From Candidatus Poribacteria bacterium (lineage in GTDB: Bacteria > Abyssobacteria > SURF-5): a stretch of DNA of 64,000 bases. Every line of letters starts with the position of its first letter. Position 1 is the stretch's first letter. The position numbers and the translations under genes are program-made. Positions 38,882-47,169 of this stretch are shown in pieces. The notes beneath the pieces were generated by a model that was given only the letters and a program-made list of their open reading frames with translations, was not told where the DNA came from and searched no databases. The DNA lies in assembly GCA_016215705.1 (NCBI GenBank), contig JACRIR010000229.1, positions 18,556-82,555 of the forward strand. The letters are read 5' to 3'.

Positions 38882-39508
38882 CTACCCCTGCTCGTCCAGC
38901 TTGACGCGCGTGCTTATGAAAACATGATCGACCTCGATTGAGTATGCGAGGCCGGCTTGCTGACAGATGTCGGCAATAATCGTGCGCAGAGATCGAGGCT
39001 GATCGGTTCGGATGCTTATTTTTGGATTGAGCGTTTTGCTGGGTCTATAAAAAATGGTCTGGTCCACGATTATGTTCACGTCGGTCAGAGACGTAAGCAA
39101 TTTCGCAACTTCTCGTATATCCTGATTCGAGAAATCCACTCCCACAGCTTCGTTTAACTTCTGATAGAATGCGTCTTGCGCTTCGCCCTTTTCTCTGTTT
39201 CTATCGATTGCCTTCTTGCACGTATCTATCGATTCGTCCACCATATGATCGATCCCGTGCGGGCGCTCGTTCGCGAGGTTCGGATAATCTTTCCAGATTC
39301 TTTCGTATCCACGAAGGGCCTCCCTGTATTTTCGAAGCGCCAAAGCGTAATTCTTTTCGTCGAGCGCCTTTGCAGCCTCCTCCTCGATGGGTTTTACCTC
39401 GTGCAGAAACACGTATAAGGCCGATTTCTGAATCTCGAATGCCCGGGCATTAGGTGTGATGGCTGCAAACATCGCGCAAAGGGGGATAAGCAAAGCTGCG
39501 ATCTTCAT
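38882..39508 (-). CDS. Exported TPR protein with secretin/TonB-type short N-domain
   Basis: A 208-residue protein with a signal peptide (MKIAALLIPLCAMFAAITPN, cleavage probably after ARA). A helical TPR-like segment follows (AAKALDEKNYALALRKYREA, RGYERIWKDYPNLA), then a C-terminal STN-type domain (VGVDFSNQDIREVAKLLTSL, ISIRTDQPRSLRTIIADICQ) as found at the N-terminus of secretins. There is no secretin channel domain, so it is not a secretin. It may bind a secretin or outer-membrane complex in the periplasm. Translation is coupled to the upstream PHP gene through an ATGA overlap with RBS GGAGG. No known family name recognised. Confidence 0.75.
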   Translation of the reverse strand: MKIAALLIPLCAMFAAITPNARAFEIQKSALYVFLHEVKPIEEEAAKALDEKNYALALRKYREALRGYERIWKDYPNLANERPHGIDHMVDESIDTCKKAIDRNREKGEAQDAFYQKLNEAVGVDFSNQDIREVAKLLTSLTDVNIIVDQTIFYRPSKTLNPKISIRTDQPRSLRTIIADICQQAGLAYSIEVDHVFISTRVKLDEQG

Positions 39509-40212
39509 CGGGGTCCTCCAAACAGCAGATTCCGAATTGATCCCACCGCCGCATCCGCAACATGGCCCAGCCCGTGTTTGCCGAATTCGATCAGTCTCAG
39601 CGGATTCGCAACTACTTCGACACGTCCGGCCTTGACTGCCTCGAGTATCGAGTCGGGGTCTTTTTCGGCGTCGACCAGGGAATAGGCCGCGCCGAATTTC
39701 TCAAGATGGTGACAATCCGAAGTGCAGAGAAGCGGCAGCCCGTATTTTGCTGCGACTCGAACCGCAAACGCATTGAAATTTATGCGGCTATGGTAGAACC
39801 ATGAATACTCGATTGCATCGAAGACGTCTATGTTTTTCCGCACAAGCCACATAAGGGAGGCAAAGTCGGGGAAATAGGGGTGCGGGGCAACTACCATGTT
39901 GAAAGGGGTTCGGAGGCGTCTGATGTCATTGAAAGTACGGGCGTTGAGGATATCGTCGTGCGCGTTCACTATCAGCACATGTTTTCCTTGGATAGTCTTT
40001 TCGATGCCCGGAATGAGCACGACGCCGCGCTCACGCGCATAATCCCGCAAATGGTCGTCGAAAGATATTCCATTGTGGTTCGTGATGCTTATAGCGTCGA
40101 AGCCCAGATGATGAGCCTTGTCGAGAAGCTCGTGGCTTGTGTGCTCGATAAGCTCTTGTGGATCATCTGCGGTATGAGTGTGGAGGTCGATTTTTAGGAG
40201 ATCTTTGCGCAT
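39505..40212 (-). CDS. PHP-domain phosphoesterase
   Basis: Polymerase-and-histidinol-phosphatase-type metal-dependent hydrolase (235 residues from ATG 40212). Metal-binding motifs are DLHTHTAD at the N-terminus, SITNHNGISFDDH, GIEKTIQGKHVLIVNAH, VVAPHPYFPDF and TSDCHHLEK. The longest frame extends 178 codons upstream into the divergent kinase-like gene and its promoter; that part is not family-like, and the chosen start is the first ATG before the PHP motif. Substrate unknown; relatives act on nucleoside phosphates or sugar phosphates. The stop overlaps the next gene's start. Confidence 0.85.
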   Translation of the reverse strand: MRKDLLKIDLHTHTADDPQELIEHTSHELLDKAHHLGFDAISITNHNGISFDDHLRDYARERGVVLIPGIEKTIQGKHVLIVNAHDDILNARTFNDIRRLRTPFNMVVAPHPYFPDFASLMWLVRKNIDVFDAIEYSWFYHSRINFNAFAVRVAAKYGLPLLCTSDCHHLEKFGAAYSLVDAEKDPDSILEAVKAGRVEVVANPLRLIEFGKHGLGHVADAAVGSIRNLLFGGPR

Positions 40213-40260
40213 CGTTGATTCGATTTTAGTGATATCCGCCGGTTTTGTCAATCGAGCACG

Positions 40261-40289
40261 TTGACTTTTATAATTCGCAGAAATATAAT
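40261..40289 (+). promoter_or_regulatory. Strong promoter of the pseudokinase-Clp operon
   Basis: TTGACT 40261-40266, a 17-base spacer and perfect TATAAT 40284-40289. The longest frame of the first gene begins in the -35 box, which excludes that start. The predicted transcript start is about 25 bases before ATG 40321. Confidence 0.78.
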
Positions 40290-40320
40290 TGCATTTGAAA
40301 CTGGCTACATGGAGGCGTCG

Positions 40321-42516
40321 ATGTTCGAAGTCGGTCAGACGGTTGAGAATCAATATCTCGTCCTGGAGAGATACCGTGGCAGGCGGTGGACTCTCTACAC
40401 CGTGCTCGATCGCATCTCGGAGAACGTCTTTACCGTGAAGAGGCCTTCGGAAAGCCTCAGATCCGACGCTTTCTCTGCCGCTCTTTTCAGGGAGAGGGCG
40501 AAGACCTGGATAAACGTCGGGGAATGCGACGAGATTGCCAAAGCATACCTGATCAAGGATTTCGATGGAATCCCCCATCTTTTTGTCGAGTATATTGACG
40601 GCCCCACTCTTGCGGACGTCCTGAATTTGAGTCCGGGCAAGCCGCTGCCCGTTAATCAGATTATCGGCCTCATGAAAGAACTCGCCAACGGCATGCGATT
40701 CCTTCATACAGCGAGGCTTCCCGGGGAATCGATCGGTGTGATTCATGGCGTGTTAACTCCTCGTAATATTCTTACGATTGCGGGAAATATCAAGATAACG
40801 GACGTCGGCCTTTCCATATCCATGCAACAACGTGCAGATGCAAGCGCCGGATCCCTACCTGACAGGATTCATTACATGGCGCCGGAACAAATCGAGGACC
40901 CGCAAAGAGCCGACCGGCTGACCGATATTTACTCCTTCGGCGCTGTCATGTATGAGGCCGCAACCGGCGCTCCGCCGACGATAAACGTACGACGCGGAGA
41001 CCCGTTGATCGAAGCTGTGCGGCTCGATCCAGTTTCTCCGAGTTTGAGAAATCGATCGTGTCCGCAATGGTTGGAGGAAACCATTCTCAAGTGCATGGCC
41101 CGGAAGCCCGAGAACCGGTTTCAAAGTATTGACCAGATCATCTCGCTGGTGAATGACCTTGCAGGAAATGAAGGGATTCCGCAGGTCTCCCCGGATGACA
41201 AGGGCGAATCAGAGGAGGCCTCGAGGGTGGCCCGCGTGCGGGGCGTGGCCAAGAAGGAATCGCGTCGTCTCGACCACTACTATCTCGGAGTCGAGCATGT
41301 CATGATAGGTCTGCTCAATGAAGAAGAGAGCGTTGTAGTAAGTTGTCTGGGCGACATGGTGACTGCCGATCAGGTGCTTGAGAAGATGCTCTCGCGCCTC
41401 CCCAAAGGCGAAGGCCCCTGGTATTGGGACGGAATTCGAAAGACTCCCCGTTATGAGCGCGTAATGAAGCTCGCCCGAAAAATAAGACGCGCATATTCAC
41501 CCAGTGACCGGATGCTTCCGCAGCACCTTCTCCTCGCAATACTGGAGGAAGGACGGAGCATCCCGGTTCGCGTTCTGCGCGAGTTGGGAGTTGACGTGGG
41601 GACCGTGGCCGAAAACCTCAAGCGAGAGATAATGCGAAGGCGTCCCGCAATCGTCGTCCCCGACTCGGGAATTCCCGGCGCGCGCTTCGCCGGCGTGGTT
41701 CCATGCACGACCGATGTCCCCTATTGTGTCCCGTTTGTCGGCCGCAGATCCGAATTAGAGAGGACACGGGACTTGCTCCTGAATGACAGGAAAGGGGTCT
41801 TGCTTGTAGGTGATGCCGGAGTGGGAAAAACGGCGCTCGTGCATGAGTTGGCATGTGTCGCGTCAGACGGCGCGCCTGCTCTCGAACCGGGACTCACCGG
41901 CATTTTTCAACTCCGACTCGCCGCCTTGCTCGCCGGCTCGGCCGATGGAGAGCAGGCGCTCAGTTACCTGGGTGAAATGCTTGACGGCATCGTCGGCGCG
42001 CATGCGATTCTACTGATTGAGGATATCCCGACGCTTCTCGGCCTCGATATCAAGATGCCTGCCCGGGGCGCTGCAGAAATTCTAGGTGACTACATTTTAT
42101 CGAAGGGACTATTGGTCGTCGCAAGCGCCCTGCCCTCAGGATATGCCTTCTGCGAATCCAATTATCCGGAATTGGTGGCGCGCCTCGAGATAGTTAACCT
42201 GCGCGAGCCCTCGTTCGAGGAAATGCTTGAGATGCTGGCGGCGGCGAAAAGAAGGTTTGAGCTCGAGCACTCAGTCAACATCTCCGATGACGCGCTTGCG
42301 GCGGTTCTGAGAGCTTCAGAAATATTTGTGTCAGGAAGCGCTCTTCCCGGAAAAGCATTTGAGCTTCTCGATCGCATCTGCGCCGCGCGGGCATGCACAA
42401 GAGCCTCCGGAGGAGCGCTTGAACAGGAAACAATCACCGCCGCGTGCGTTGAAGGCGCGTTCTCCGACGGCGACAAGCAAGCGTCTCAAAATGAAGATTG
42501 GGTGCTGAATACATGA
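40321..42516 (+). CDS. Pseudokinase fused to Clp-N repeats and a ClpA/B-type AAA+ module
   Basis: A 731-residue fusion. Residues 1-280 have the Ser/Thr kinase fold: Lys-40 in VFTVK, FVEYIDGPTLADVL, DVG at 161-163 and APE at 187-189. The catalytic loop is HGVLTPRN (142-149) instead of HRDLKPEN, so the catalytic Asp is Val and the Lys is Thr; the Gly-rich loop is absent. Residues 318-437 hold two Clp-N-type repeats (GVEHVMIGLLNEEE, LPQHLLLAILEEG). Residues 470-715 form one AAA+ domain with FVGRRSELER, Walker A GDAGVGKT (497-504) and an altered Walker B (ILLIEDIP, 563-570). GGAGG lies five bases before ATG 40321. The kinase half likely binds or senses phosphoproteins rather than phosphorylating; the Clp half may remodel them. 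First of five coupled genes. Confidence 0.85.
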   Translation: MFEVGQTVENQYLVLERYRGRRWTLYTVLDRISENVFTVKRPSESLRSDAFSAALFRERAKTWINVGECDEIAKAYLIKDFDGIPHLFVEYIDGPTLADVLNLSPGKPLPVNQIIGLMKELANGMRFLHTARLPGESIGVIHGVLTPRNILTIAGNIKITDVGLSISMQQRADASAGSLPDRIHYMAPEQIEDPQRADRLTDIYSFGAVMYEAATGAPPTINVRRGDPLIEAVRLDPVSPSLRNRSCPQWLEETILKCMARKPENRFQSIDQIISLVNDLAGNEGIPQVSPDDKGESEEASRVARVRGVAKKESRRLDHYYLGVEHVMIGLLNEEESVVVSCLGDMVTADQVLEKMLSRLPKGEGPWYWDGIRKTPRYERVMKLARKIRRAYSPSDRMLPQHLLLAILEEGRSIPVRVLRELGVDVGTVAENLKREIMRRRPAIVVPDSGIPGARFAGVVPCTTDVPYCVPFVGRRSELERTRDLLLNDRKGVLLVGDAGVGKTALVHELACVASDGAPALEPGLTGIFQLRLAALLAGSADGEQALSYLGEMLDGIVGAHAILLIEDIPTLLGLDIKMPARGAAEILGDYILSKGLLVVASALPSGYAFCESNYPELVARLEIVNLREPSFEEMLEMLAAAKRRFELEHSVNISDDALAAVLRASEIFVSGSALPGKAFELLDRICAARACTRASGGALEQETITAACVEGAFSDGDKQASQNEDWVLNT

Positions 42517-42881
42517 AGGCGCCCGAAATAAACAGAGCCCATAGAGCAAAAGAACCTGTCTCCGGAAAATTCGTCATCGAGGTCATGAATGGTCCTGAAG
42601 ACGGGCGAACTACGGTTTGCGACCAAATGCCGATCACCATCGGGAGAGCAACAGACAACGCTGTGCATCTTCCGTATGATCATCTCATCTCCCGACACCA
42701 CGCTCGACTTGTTGAGGCGGAGGGCAAGATGATGGTCTGCGACCTCAAGAGCACTAATGGCACATTCGTCGGAAGCAGGCGCGTCCACGGCAAAATTGTC
42801 ATAGAGCGCGGGAAGCTCTTCCGTGTGGGCGCCACTCTGCTCTGCATGAGATCGGGTGAGGCTGAGTCCACGGACAAGTGA
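42513..42881 (+). CDS. FHA-domain protein
   Basis: A 122-residue protein consisting almost only of a forkhead-associated domain, which binds phosphothreonine peptides. Core motifs are intact: ITIGRATDNAVHLPY, ISRHHARL and DLKSTNGTFVGS. It overlaps the preceding gene by four bases (ATGA), so the two are translationally coupled. With the partner kinase domain apparently dead, the phosphorylation that this FHA domain reads must come from another kinase, or it may bind an unphosphorylated partner. Confidence 0.9.
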   Translation: MKAPEINRAHRAKEPVSGKFVIEVMNGPEDGRTTVCDQMPITIGRATDNAVHLPYDHLISRHHARLVEAEGKMMVCDLKSTNGTFVGSRRVHGKIVIERGKLFRVGATLLCMRSGEAESTDK

Positions 42882-42887
42882 TAGGGT

Positions 42888-44768
42888 GTGACGCGCATGG
42901 GGACTAAGGACCACGGCGCCGGCGGACGAGATCATGTTAGGCCGCGGAGAAAACTGCCCTGTGTCAACCATCCGAAAACTCCCGCCGCAGCTCGCTGCCA
43001 GGTTTGCGGGAATCCGATATGCTCTCAGTGTCTCACTTCGTACGAGGGCGCGCAGATTTGCAGCAGCCAATGCTGGAACGCGAGGGTAACGAGCGAATCC
43101 GCTACGGCAGCCACTGAGGAAAAGGCGCGCCGCAGAAAGAAGGAGAAAGTTGCGGATCGCGCGGTGACCATAGTATTGTTGAGCGCATTCATTATCATAG
43201 TGGCCGTCGCCGGGATTTTCGCTTACGTCAAGCTCTCGAATCATGCCGGAGAGAAGATTTGGGAGTACTCCGATTCAGCCGGATACCTTTCTTTTTCCAT
43301 TCAGCCGGATTCAAACACACTCTTTCTCCTGTCAAGGGACAAGCTCGAGGCAATCCACTCGCTTACGGGCAGAAGTACGTGGAGCGTCAAACTGCCCGAG
43401 AGGGTGAGCTCACCGAGAATATTCATAATTGATGATGATCGATGCCTACTGAGTCTCAAGAACAAGGTGCTCTTGTGCGGTTCGGCTCAGGCCACTCCCA
43501 TGTGGGTGTATTCGGCCCCTCAACCTTTCATGTCCGCCCGGCCGGTTTTCTTTGATAACCGTCTCTATTCGGCAAGCTCCGCAGGCGGATATCCCACCTT
43601 CTATTCAGGGGAAGATTCTGATTACTTCGACAGAGACTACTACTATCTCGAAGAGGATTTTGACTCCGAGGAAGGGGAGGACCTTTCCGTGTCGTGGAGG
43701 AAGAGGAGCCAGGGCCAGGACAAAGAAGAAAAGAAAGCATCGACCGTCAGCTCCGTCGATATGACTTCCGGTGCGCAATTGTGGAAAACCGAACTGGAAG
43801 ACCGCAGAGTCGGCGGCCTGATGGCTGATAAGGACTATGTCTATGTTGTCGCATATGATTTCGACGATGACTTGCGAAGCAGATACCGGTTACAAGCGGA
43901 AGATACCAAGTCCGGCGCTGAACAGCAGGCTGGATCGGACGAACAAGTCGGAAGCGCTCAACTCTGGGCCTTGAATGCTGCGACCGGAAAAGCCGAATGG
44001 AAACTGGAGGGCGGAGGAGGCTTCGTCATTCCTCCAATGATGAGCGGGGAAGGCATCGTCTTTTCGACCGAAAAAAATATCTACTTGATCTCGGCGAGCG
44101 GGCAAATCAAATGGACTTATCCGATCCCGGACAAACTCATCAGCTCGTTTCAACCTTACACGGATAAACTGTTTGTGTCAACGAGTGACGGCTTCCTTTT
44201 TTGCCTCGATCTCGCAACCGGACAGAAGAAATGGATGACTGAAATCGGGGATGATCCCGGCAGGATCGTCGTTTCGCCTCCGCTGCTTTATGTCTCCGGC
44301 TTGGCCAGGAGAGAGGAGGTCGAACGCAAGGTGATTCCAACGAAACGGTGGCAAGGCTCAGAGGACCTGCTGAAAAAGGCCCTCAAACCTTCCGGCCCGA
44401 CGTATGAAAAGATTCTCCTCGGCATTGACATCGAGAGCGGCCAAACACGCGTGTCAATACCCAAGATCACCGGCAATTTTGCACACGGGGGCGGCGTGCT
44501 CTATGCGCTTCGCTATTTCGAATGGATGCAGTTCCTCGATGCGAGCGCCGATCCTACTCAATTATCAAAGACTGTCTCAAACCTCGGCGCCTATGATGCC
44601 TTGAGCGGCGAGAAGATTTGGGAGACTGCGATAGAGGGATACGCCTCGAACCTCAGTTTGGGAAAGAACGCTGTTTTCATTACTGCGCGTTTTCAGGAAG
44701 TCAGTCTGGCCGCCGACCAGGGCAATAAGATAATACCAACTCGCTTGATAGGTATTTCCCTCCAATAG
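42888..44768 (+). CDS. Zinc-finger / membrane / PQQ-type beta-propeller protein
   Basis: A 626-residue bitopic protein. The N-terminal cytoplasmic part has a B-box-like zinc finger (CVNHPKTPAAARCQVCGNPI, then CSQC and CSSQC) and a basic stretch. A single membrane helix follows (VTIVLLSAFIIIVAVAGIFA, near residues 95-115). The rest is an extracytoplasmic beta-propeller with repeated PQQ-like blades: GRSTWSVKLPERV, GAQLWKTELEDRRVGG, GKAEWKLEGGGGFVIP, GQIKWTYPIPDKLISS, GQKKWMTEIGDDPG, GEKIWETAIEGYAS. An Asp/Glu/Tyr-rich loop interrupts it (near residue 240). No PQQ-enzyme active site is evident, so it is more likely a scaffold or sensor. GTG 42888 or ATG 42897 could be the start. Confidence 0.82.
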   Translation: MTRMGTKDHGAGGRDHVRPRRKLPCVNHPKTPAAARCQVCGNPICSQCLTSYEGAQICSSQCWNARVTSESATAATEEKARRRKKEKVADRAVTIVLLSAFIIIVAVAGIFAYVKLSNHAGEKIWEYSDSAGYLSFSIQPDSNTLFLLSRDKLEAIHSLTGRSTWSVKLPERVSSPRIFIIDDDRCLLSLKNKVLLCGSAQATPMWVYSAPQPFMSARPVFFDNRLYSASSAGGYPTFYSGEDSDYFDRDYYYLEEDFDSEEGEDLSVSWRKRSQGQDKEEKKASTVSSVDMTSGAQLWKTELEDRRVGGLMADKDYVYVVAYDFDDDLRSRYRLQAEDTKSGAEQQAGSDEQVGSAQLWALNAATGKAEWKLEGGGGFVIPPMMSGEGIVFSTEKNIYLISASGQIKWTYPIPDKLISSFQPYTDKLFVSTSDGFLFCLDLATGQKKWMTEIGDDPGRIVVSPPLLYVSGLARREEVERKVIPTKRWQGSEDLLKKALKPSGPTYEKILLGIDIESGQTRVSIPKITGNFAHGGGVLYALRYFEWMQFLDASADPTQLSKTVSNLGAYDALSGEKIWETAIEGYASNLSLGKNAVFITARFQEVSLAADQGNKIIPTRLIGISLQ

Positions 44769-44776
44769 GGTGTTCC

Positions 44777-45880
44777 ATGCGTCTTCCGGAAAGTGGTGGG
44801 CCAATCACCAACCGCATCGTTGACCTGCTCGGAAACTCAATCGAGCTTACTACCGAGTATTGCTGCAAGTACCACCCCCGCAAGAATGCCACTTCCATGT
44901 GTGAATGTTGCGGAGCAGACCTCTGCTCCGATTGCTCAAACATCCGCACACGTCGAGTGGTCTGCTCCAAATGCATGAGCACGCTTGACAAGACGTTCTC
45001 CGGAATGGGACCGGCTTCGTTGTTTACGCGCGTATTCACCCATCCTTTTGCCATAGCGCTCGTCCTGATCTCAATCCTCGGCTACCTTCTTTTCAGCTTT
45101 GGTCAAACCCATCGAAAGGGGCTGCTCAGAGGCGCTTCTGCGGCTGTTGACGCCTCCGAAGAACAACTCCGCCTGAAAATGCTTCTCTATGCTCAGAAGG
45201 CGGAAAGAGTCGAAACACATGCCGACGCCCTGCGCGAGGAGGGCCGTCTTGGAGAAGCCAACCGTGACTGTGACCGCGCAAGAACGATCTACGAAATGTT
45301 GACCCAGGAGGCAACCGGCAGGTGGGAGCACAACATCGTTACGCTTGCCCGCGCGCGGCTCCTGGAAAAGATGGGGGAACACTCATACGCCGAGGGCCTC
45401 TACAGGAGTCTGGCCAACATGCCGGAGCCCGACAAGACGTACGCGGCAATCGCGCAATTTCATCTGGCGGTGTTACAAGAAAAGCTGGATCGCGAAAAGG
45501 CGTTGGAAACATACAATGCTTTTCTGCGCAGCCTGACCTTTGTTCCCGATAACCTTTCACGTGCGCTCAATGTGATGTCCCATACGGAAGGCGCCTACAA
45601 CTATGAGAGCCGTTTGCGCGCCGCCACGCGAACCGACTTTGATTTTGAGAAAGCGAAAGCGGAGGCGTCTCTCCGGATGGGGCGTCTACTTCTTGCTCTC
45701 GGGCGTCCCGAAGATGCAAAGGATAGCTTCAGGCTTGTGCTCGAGGAAGATGCGGGCTCAAAACTGGCCGACCAGGCGCGGACCGAGCTCGACAAAATGC
45801 GCGCGTTTGATAAGCAAAAAGAGCCTCTCGCCGAAAAGACCGAGCATGCGGAGAAGGTGGTGATAACTCACTTTGAGTGA
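44777..45880 (+). CDS. Zinc-finger / membrane / TPR protein
   Basis: A 367-residue protein with the same design as its neighbour. It has an N-terminal B-box-like zinc finger (CCKYHPRKNATSMCECCGAD, CSDC, CSKC), then a membrane helix (HPFAIALVLISILGYLLFSF). A large alpha-helical region with TPR-type repeats follows (AERVETHADALREEGRLGEA, TYAAIAQFHLAVLQEKLDRE, EASLRMGRLLLALGRPEDAK). A protein-protein interaction role at the membrane is inferred. It starts eight bases after the previous stop, and its own stop overlaps the next start (GTGA). Confidence 0.8.
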   Translation: MRLPESGGPITNRIVDLLGNSIELTTEYCCKYHPRKNATSMCECCGADLCSDCSNIRTRRVVCSKCMSTLDKTFSGMGPASLFTRVFTHPFAIALVLISILGYLLFSFGQTHRKGLLRGASAAVDASEEQLRLKMLLYAQKAERVETHADALREEGRLGEANRDCDRARTIYEMLTQEATGRWEHNIVTLARARLLEKMGEHSYAEGLYRSLANMPEPDKTYAAIAQFHLAVLQEKLDREKALETYNAFLRSLTFVPDNLSRALNVMSHTEGAYNYESRLRAATRTDFDFEKAKAEASLRMGRLLLALGRPEDAKDSFRLVLEEDAGSKLADQARTELDKMRAFDKQKEPLAEKTEHAEKVVITHFE

Positions 45881-47169
45881 GCATAGCCATGCTGCTTCCT
45901 TATAGAATCGAAACCGAATCCGAGAAACTCAGCCTTCTCACGTACATTATCATAGGCGCGAATGCCGCAATATTCCTCTCCATGCGCTTTCTTCCCGCCT
46001 CGATGCTCGAGATGGCATACTATGATTACGGATTCATTCCCGAGCGGATTCATCTTTTCACCATGTTCTCCTCGATGTTCATCCATGTGGGCTGGCTCCA
46101 TATCGTCGGCAACATGTACTTCTTATGGCTTTTCGGGCGGGCTCTCGAAGGCAGAATGAACGGCGGCCTCTTTGTGGCTTTGTATTTCGGCAGCGGAATT
46201 GCCGGCGGCCTCCTCCAGGCATGGCTCACGCCGGACTATTTGACCGATGTTCCGTGCATCGGCGCGTCGGGGGCTATTTCGGGCGTTTTGGGAGCCTACA
46301 TGATCATGCATCCGCGCGAGGAGGTAGACTGCATCTATTTTTCGTTTGCTATGAGATATGCGACCTCGATATCACTTGCGAGTGTGTGGGTGCTTGGCTC
46401 ATGGTTTTTCCTGCAATTCGCAAATGCGCTCTGGCTCTCGCCAAAAACCGCGGAAGGAATGGTGGCGTTCTGGGCGCACATTGGCGGTTTCGCGTCTGCG
46501 GCTGTGGCCGCGGCTCTCTTCAAATATTCGGCCGCTCTCGCGCGAACAATACGACGGCGCTCAGGAACTGTTGCTCTCGAGGAGTACTCCGACCTCATTC
46601 ATAAAGGCCGCGTCGATGAAGCGGCGACACGGTTGAGCCTTGCCGTGAAAGCAAGTCCGTCGGATGCGCTCGTTCTCGCCGAATGCGGAAAACTCGAGTT
46701 GACCAGAGGCAACAGAAGCGGAGCGCGGAAACTGCTCAGGCGATCTCTCAAGAATGCGCTTGACCAAAAAAACGATGCAAAGGCAATCTCCGCCTACCTG
46801 GCGCTCACGACAGCGGGAGAGAACCCTCCCGATAACTCACGCCGCCTCATCATGGGCCGAAGGTTTGCTCGCCTCAAGAAGTACGGGCACGCGCTCGGCA
46901 TTATGTCTGAGGCCTTCGATGAAAAAAGCGGCGCCCGCAGCCCTGCCCCGGATTCCTCCGGGCGACGCAGCGGCAAGAAATCCGTTCTCGAGATGGAAGG
47001 CCTCGACAAACTGCTCTACGAGATTGCCGAAATCCTCGGCGGACCCTTGAAGGACCAGGCGCGCGCAGCCGCTGCTTATGGAATCCTTAAGGAGCTATTC
47101 CCGCATTCCCCCCGCAGCCTTGATGCCGAGTATCAACTTCGTAAACTCCGGGCGTTCAAGAAGGTGTGA
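45877..47169 (+). CDS. Rhomboid-family intramembrane serine protease with C-terminal TPRs
   Basis: A 430-residue membrane protein. Residues 15-225 are a rhomboid core: HVGWLHIVGNMYFLWLFGRA (loop 1 region), GxSG motif in CIGASGAISGVLGAY (catalytic Ser), and the catalytic His in AHIGGFASAAVAAAL. A soluble C-terminal half follows with TPR-like helices (DEAATRLSLAVKASPSDALV, AYGILKELFPHSPRSLDAEY). Rhomboids cleave membrane-anchored substrates; the two bitopic zinc-finger proteins next door are obvious candidate substrates. GTG 45877 overlaps the preceding stop; ATG 45889 is also possible. Last gene of the operon. Confidence 0.88.
   Translation: MSIAMLLPYRIETESEKLSLLTYIIIGANAAIFLSMRFLPASMLEMAYYDYGFIPERIHLFTMFSSMFIHVGWLHIVGNMYFLWLFGRALEGRMNGGLFVALYFGSGIAGGLLQAWLTPDYLTDVPCIGASGAISGVLGAYMIMHPREEVDCIYFSFAMRYATSISLASVWVLGSWFFLQFANALWLSPKTAEGMVAFWAHIGGFASAAVAAALFKYSAALARTIRRRSGTVALEEYSDLIHKGRVDEAATRLSLAVKASPSDALVLAECGKLELTRGNRSGARKLLRRSLKNALDQKNDAKAISAYLALTTAGENPPDNSRRLIMGRRFARLKKYGHALGIMSEAFDEKSGARSPAPDSSGRRSGKKSVLEMEGLDKLLYEIAEILGGPLKDQARAAAAYGILKELFPHSPRSLDAEYQLRKLRAFKKV

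Follow-up and report, generated by a model that had tools for sequence, protein, structure and literature searches.

The window analysed here, a 64-kb stretch of contig C166 from the 5.47-Mb genome of a Candidatus Abyssobacteria relative, carries five genes, P1 to P5, on one strand at 40321-47169 (+). They were compared with those of the closest relatives in the genome set, two members of the same family: SURF_17 (G002; operon contig QZKI01000059.1, G002:C86) and the 5.1-Mb genome G001. The genes and the features preceding them are as follows.

39505-40212, minus strand: PHP-domain gene, divergent from P1 and kept beside it in all three family genomes (62-70% identity)
40261-40289, plus strand: promoter TTGACT-N17-TATAAT, an 11/12 match, with counterparts in SURF_17 and G001
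40321-42516, plus strand: P1, pseudokinase (1-275), Clp_N (301-437) and degenerate ClpC-D1-like AAA domain (471-700), 731 aa, no transmembrane (TM) segment
42513-42881, plus strand: P2, FHA protein, 122 aa, phosphothreonine-binding signature (GR, SxxH, NG) intact
42888-44768, plus strand: P3, B-box-like finger, one TM segment (93-111, predicted N-in) and PQQ/BamB-type beta-propeller, 626 aa; start GTG, alternative ATG at 42897
44777-45880, plus strand: P4, B-box-like finger, one TM segment (91-109) and TPR region, 367 aa; C-terminal tail V-x-I-x-H-F-[DE] conserved
45889-47169, plus strand: P5, rhomboid protease with C-terminal TPR-like region, 426 aa; alternative GTG at 45877

The genes are as closely packed as a preliminary description of the locus had held, P1 and P2 overlapping by 4 bases and the following gaps measuring 6 (P2-P3), 8 (P3-P4) and 8 bases (P4-P5), and the domains it had assigned to all five proteins were borne out by profile matches. 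The promoter, which it had called perfect, departs from consensus at one of 12 positions. Promoters in the three genomes read TTGACT (window), TTGACT (SURF_17) and TTGACA (G001, a 12/12 match), all with a 17-base spacer and TATAAT and all approximately 40 bases 5' of the P1 start region; in the window a second 11/12 match, beginning at 40245, overlaps the first. TTG 40261 falls within the -35 box and is not the start of P1, which is ATG 40321 (or 40309). The PHP gene is probably a neighbour and not a component; the gene beside it (38882-39508), which has a weak GspD-N0-like match, is kept next to the PHP gene in G001 also.

Co-occurrence of the five families was checked in other genomes, and orthologues of all five genes were found in both family relatives; the module of pseudokinase, FHA protein, B-box membrane proteins and rhomboid is thus co-inherited, as the initial proposal had supposed. 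Conservation of gene order, which it had said would count as support if seen in distant genomes, holds in SURF_17 but gives way to a split in G001 and, in the distant genome G337, to the P3-P4 pair alone. The SURF_17 orthologues (49-62% identity by BLAST) keep the gene order of the window, all on a single strand, and the divergent PHP gene is the only flanking feature in common with the window, the downstream flank being different. Retention of the same five orthologues in the same order, within otherwise different flanks, argues for more than chance association. Gaps of 388 bases (P3-P4) and 377 bases (P4-P5) nevertheless make co-transcription of P3, P4 and P5 in SURF_17 uncertain. Each of these enlarged gaps contains one copy of a palindromic repeat of about 110 bases (TCATTGCGAG...CTCGCAATGA; locus L032, 2116-2219 and 3591-3705), on which account they look like later insertions; a lone half-site motif is all that the 64-kb window holds of this repeat.

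In G001, P1, P2 and a first P3 copy (P3a) lie beside the same PHP gene as in the window, and P4-P5, on contig C87, follow the C-terminal piece of a second copy (P3b), whose N-terminal piece ends contig C68. Both P3b pieces (L141 5488-6172 at the C68 end and L051 10023-11482 at the C87 end) break at profile position 158, a little short of where each contig stops, as if the gene had been interrupted by a repeat or insertion, and no overlap joining C68 and C87 into one intact P3b was found. Since each half of the split keeps a copy of P3, this protein is the likely link between the operon halves; P4 and P5 are adjacent in all three family genomes.

Full-length P1 profile matches were confined to the three family members among 386 genomes, and P1 was absent from the other 383, nearly all of whose matches were of ordinary ClpC type and fell in the Clp half. 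A narrow-pattern contig scan with P1 returned only SURF_17 and an Elusimicrobia match limited to the kinase part, and the viral contigs and plasmids searched yielded nothing. Profile searches with P3 and P4 detected in G337, which lies outside Abyssobacteria, adjacent P3-like and P4-like genes of the same architecture (20% and 25% identity). The P4-like gene runs to a contig edge and, as far as assembled, the pair has no adjacent rhomboid; the G337 rhomboid is on another contig and is without the TPR part. Genome G030 has a P5-like rhomboid with none of the other partners nearby. The P3-P4 pair would accordingly seem to predate the full set or to be more mobile than it; the full set, on present data from a genome sample that is broad but thin, is restricted to one candidate phylum.

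P1 gave profile matches to PK_Tyr_Ser-Thr (6.5e-23), Clp_N (5.2e-16) and AAA_lid_9 (1.5e-11). Its kinase fold (1-275) is closest to StkP/PknB (2e-23) and keeps the ATP-contacting Lys40 and the DxG Asp161; the glycine loop is missing from all three orthologues, and HRD has become HGV, HGN or HGG, with loss of the catalytic Asp. Residues 301-686 align with ClpC 8-398 (3e-32), ClpC being the best match for the Clp half, and the protein ends after the D1 lid, without an M domain, D2 ring or ClpP-binding loop. Within the AAA portion, Walker B is altered (IED, IED and VEG in the three orthologues), Walker A is intact in two of three and has lost its Thr in G001 (GPPGIGKK), the aromatic of pore loop 1 is absent throughout (ClpC GTKYRGEFE becoming GSADGEQAL), and Arg-finger residues are gone from two of the three. 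Identity among orthologues is 63-65% in Clp_N and 51-57% in the pseudokinase, falling to 31-44% in the large AAA domain. These identities and motif losses imply that what P1 keeps is Clp_N and a kinase-fold scaffold, with a motor that seems to be decaying. The loss of motifs from both kinase and AAA domains, together with the contrast between a poorly conserved AAA part and a well conserved Clp_N, argues that P1 is probably a double pseudoenzyme scaffold and not a remodelling machine. Remodelling by the Clp module, as first suggested, is contradicted by the absence of the pore aromatic, canonical Walker B and D2 in all three orthologues. Of the phosphoarginine sites described in ClpC, the activating pArg1 site at E106 and the pArg2 site at E32 (PMC12583610), the equivalent of E32 is kept as Glu325 and that of E106 is Gln401, again in all three. 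An AlphaFold2 model of P1 was poor, reaching a mean pLDDT of only 37.9 with an alignment containing one relative only.

A further fusion of kinase and Clp_N homology was noted in G001 (contig C67, L034 9602-10906, minus strand), where a 434-aa kinase with intact HRD, DFG and glycine loop is followed by a weak Clp_N match. It resembles P1 in domain order (26% identity over 449 aa) but has intact motifs, no AAA part and other neighbours, and would appear to represent the P1 architecture in active form. Genuine ClpC is encoded in all three family genomes. Each genome also has 14-20 Pkinase matches (P1 counted), most with full-length domains, which suggests that kinases able to supply a phospho-mark probably exist in these cells.

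P2 consists of a single FHA domain (3.3e-14), in which the phosphothreonine-binding residues G44 R45, S60 R61 H63 and N82 G83 are invariant among the three orthologues, and by this intact signature it is a putative phosphothreonine reader. It also matches the FhaB/FipA-like NCBIfam model NF049868 (5.7e-22), under that model's cut-off.

P3 and P4 share the finger pattern C2H..C2C..C2C..C2-3C followed by a TM segment, as do their G337 homologues, and the similarity claimed earlier for the two fingers amounts to 42% identity over 24 aa. In P3 the finger (zf-B_box 5.9e-5, score 23.6 against a cut-off of 24.1) precedes a propeller (PQQ_2 2.2e-22) with relatives in BamB and in the PQQ propellers attached to kinases. 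In P4 the Pfam zf-B_box score is weak (0.25, score 12.0), despite which the CxxH..CxxC..CxxC..CxxC pattern is conserved; the remainder matches TPR_6 (1.3e-8) and closes, after a poorly conserved stretch, on an extreme C terminus, V-x-I-x-H-F-[DE], that is conserved in the three family members. Mean pLDDT for P4 in AlphaFold2 was 56.6, from an alignment with one relative only. A basic linker precedes the TM segment of P3, with 8 basic residues before it and 2 after, which predicts an N-in (type II) topology; the propeller may serve in external sensing. Known rhomboid substrates are mostly N-out, and the cleavage of P3 by P5 that had been envisaged is therefore doubtful. The TM flanks of P4 leave its orientation ambiguous.

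Fingers of this type are not private to the operon, a notion we rejected on finding approximately a dozen PF00643 matches per family genome, ranging from weak to strong and several above cut-off. Small B-box-TM proteins occur elsewhere (L138 10534-10863 on G000 contig C231; L052 4085-4420 on G001 contig C37), and their neighbourhood in the two genomes resembles a MoxR AAA/DUF58/RDD-type operon, possibly another membrane context that brings B-box and AAA proteins together. An unusual finger fusion occurs on G001 contig C42 (L140 3772-5862), where a 696-aa protein joins a B-box-like N terminus to an apparent ferredoxin-type iron-sulfur domain.

P5 matches the Rhomboid profile (2.7e-27) and, weakly, TPR. 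Its catalytic residues, Ser127 (in GASG) and His197, and the oxyanion motif H71xxxN75 are invariant in all three orthologues. Identity over residues 365-422 reaches 71-82%, against 56-67% in the catalytic domain, which suggests that the C-terminal repeat region may be a docking surface. The first TM segment starts at about residue 14, leaving no N-terminal cytosolic domain, and we infer that the TPR side is cytosolic.

We propose, with a probability of about 0.4, that these genes encode a lineage-specific assembly for membrane-protein proteolysis and quality control (or proteolytic signalling) that is tuned by phosphorylation. It would most likely represent a lineage-specific elaboration of an existing link: according to the summary in PMC4506424, citing Burroughs et al. 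2011, prokaryotic B-box fingers are tied to the folding, stability and proteolysis of membrane proteins, and such a finger is one of the extra domains carried by mycobacterial rhomboids (PMC2989971). P3, through its propeller, and P4, through its TPRs, would collect clients from the membrane or periplasm or signal what state these are in, and the fingers of P3 and P4, along with the TPR-like tail of P5, would dock on P1 in the cytosol. Another cellular kinase would phosphorylate either a partner in the membrane or P1 itself; P2 would read the mark and so switch the assembly. P5 would clip the client within the membrane, and the Clp N-domain of P1 might hand cytosolic remnants to genuine ClpC or compete with ClpC for adaptors. 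Judged from its parts, P1 would tentatively be the phospho-tuned cytosolic scaffold that joins B-box clients, rhomboid and ClpC. This logic combines two precedents. In Bacillus subtilis the TPR rhomboid YqgP, which has a metal-binding N-terminal cytosolic domain before its rhomboid core, both cuts a membrane client and presents it to the AAA protease FtsH (PMC7231995), and the mycobacterial pseudokinase MviN is phosphorylated by a true kinase and then read by FhaA (PMC12599244).

Several observations speak for this quality-control assembly: the five-gene set in SURF_17, the G001 split with P3 in each half and the conserved promoter; the adjacent P3-P4 pair in distant G337; the pseudoenzyme residues of P1 alongside Clp_N as its best-conserved domain; the invariant FHA signature and rhomboid Ser/His together with the highly conserved P5 repeats; the presence of genuine ClpC and many Pkinase matches in all three genomes and of the intact-motif kinase-Clp_N protein in G001; and the published precedents (PMC4506424, PMC7231995 and PMC12599244). 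Against it stand the occurrence of the full set in three genomes only, one of them split, the G337 pair without an adjacent rhomboid as far as assembled, the ambiguous orientation of P4, the spacing of some 380 bases between P3, P4 and P5 in SURF_17, and the commonness of B-box membrane proteins in family genomes.

A somewhat less probable reading places the weight on kinase-FHA signalling at the envelope, with P3 sensing an envelope or periplasmic ligand, P1 recruiting P2, as a phospho-scaffold, for the control of envelope synthesis or division, and P5 merely ending the signal by shedding P4, so that proteolysis would be secondary. The FhaB/FipA-like match of P2 (NF049868, 5.7e-22, below cut-off) beside a PknB/StkP-like pseudokinase, the MviN-FhaA precedent (PMC12599244) and the kinship of the P3 propeller with BamB and kinase-attached PQQ propellers are all consistent with it, but the best-conserved part of P1 is Clp_N and not the kinase fold, and neither the operon nor its conserved flank contains a cell-wall or division gene. 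We consider it unlikely that P1 instead regulates genuine ClpC, in dominant-negative fashion or by co-assembly, with Clp_N and the broken D1 joining or titrating the ClpC ring and adaptors at the membrane while the other genes serve only to localise P1. Such a role would suit the ClpC-like Clp half, the presence of genuine ClpC in all three genomes and the retention of the pArg2 glutamate (E325) with replacement of the activating pArg1 glutamate by Gln401 in all three orthologues (site roles from PMC12583610); the poor conservation of the AAA part and the loss of the Arg finger from two of three speak against stable co-assembly, though not against competition through the N-domain. Equally improbable is an operon shared within a small family by two or three independent units (P1-P2, P3-P4 and P5) with no common mechanism. 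The G337 pair lacking an adjacent rhomboid, the G001 split and the repeat-bearing gaps of SURF_17 speak for it; against it are the retention of all five genes in three of three genomes, the presence of P3 in both G001 halves and the order kept in SURF_17 although its downstream flank differs.

Searches of Pfam, NCBIfam and PADLOC returned no named system for the set beyond single domains. An anti-phage defence system was also considered and rejected, there being no multi-gene match; P1 had generic kinase matches only (PD-T4-6, mad6 and similar) and P2-P5 none. Our literature search found no description of the five-gene set or of a fusion of pseudokinase, Clp_N and dead AAA domain. The preliminary view that no named system has this gene set therefore stands as far as searched, but the theme of B-box fingers in membrane-protein proteolysis is already known (PMC4506424). 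In short, the parts and the general theme are known, and the combination and the P1 fusion, which we have not found described, have so far been seen in this lineage only.

The retention of five genes in all three genomes suggests an undescribed machine controlling membrane proteins in a lineage of little-known deep-subsurface bacteria. Rhomboids are found in nearly all bacteria, and we know of few that have known partners or substrates; here co-inheritance singles out candidate partners, the pseudokinase/pseudo-Clp fusion is an unusual addition, and the module offers a concrete, testable link between the reading of phosphorylation and intramembrane proteolysis. With one candidate phylum as its whole range on present data, it has little generality, unless more widespread versions come to light through the P3-P4 pair. 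In an extended form of the proposal, to which we assign a low likelihood, the dead kinase and dead AAA half surrounding a live Clp N-domain would make P1 a phospho-switched cytosolic receptor that couples the B-box client collectors and the rhomboid to housekeeping ClpC; were this true, the machine would be a rhomboid-to-Clp analogue of ERAD-like hand-over.

The relation of the module to known systems can be drawn at four points. With the prokaryotic B-box proteins of Burroughs et al., as these are represented by the summary in PMC4506424, it shares a finger on single-TM proteins encoded beside a membrane peptidase gene, and differs in that one operon holds two distinct finger proteins, one with a propeller and one with TPRs, besides an FHA protein and the pseudokinase-Clp scaffold. 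P1 shares Clp_N and D1 homology with the Hsp100 protein ClpC over residues 301-686, but has a kinase fold in front and an altered Walker B, and is without the M domain, D2/ClpP contact and pore-loop aromatic. Like YqgP-FtsH, the module has a rhomboid with C-terminal TPRs that is proposed to pass clients on to an AAA machine; P5 is without the N-terminal cytosolic domain of YqgP, its TPR side is presumably cytosolic where that of YqgP is extracellular, and the AAA partner is a degenerate Clp half instead of FtsH. As in MviN-FhaA, a pseudokinase and an FHA protein are the proposed partners, though here their genes are adjacent and Clp_N/AAA takes the place of MviN as fusion partner of the pseudokinase.
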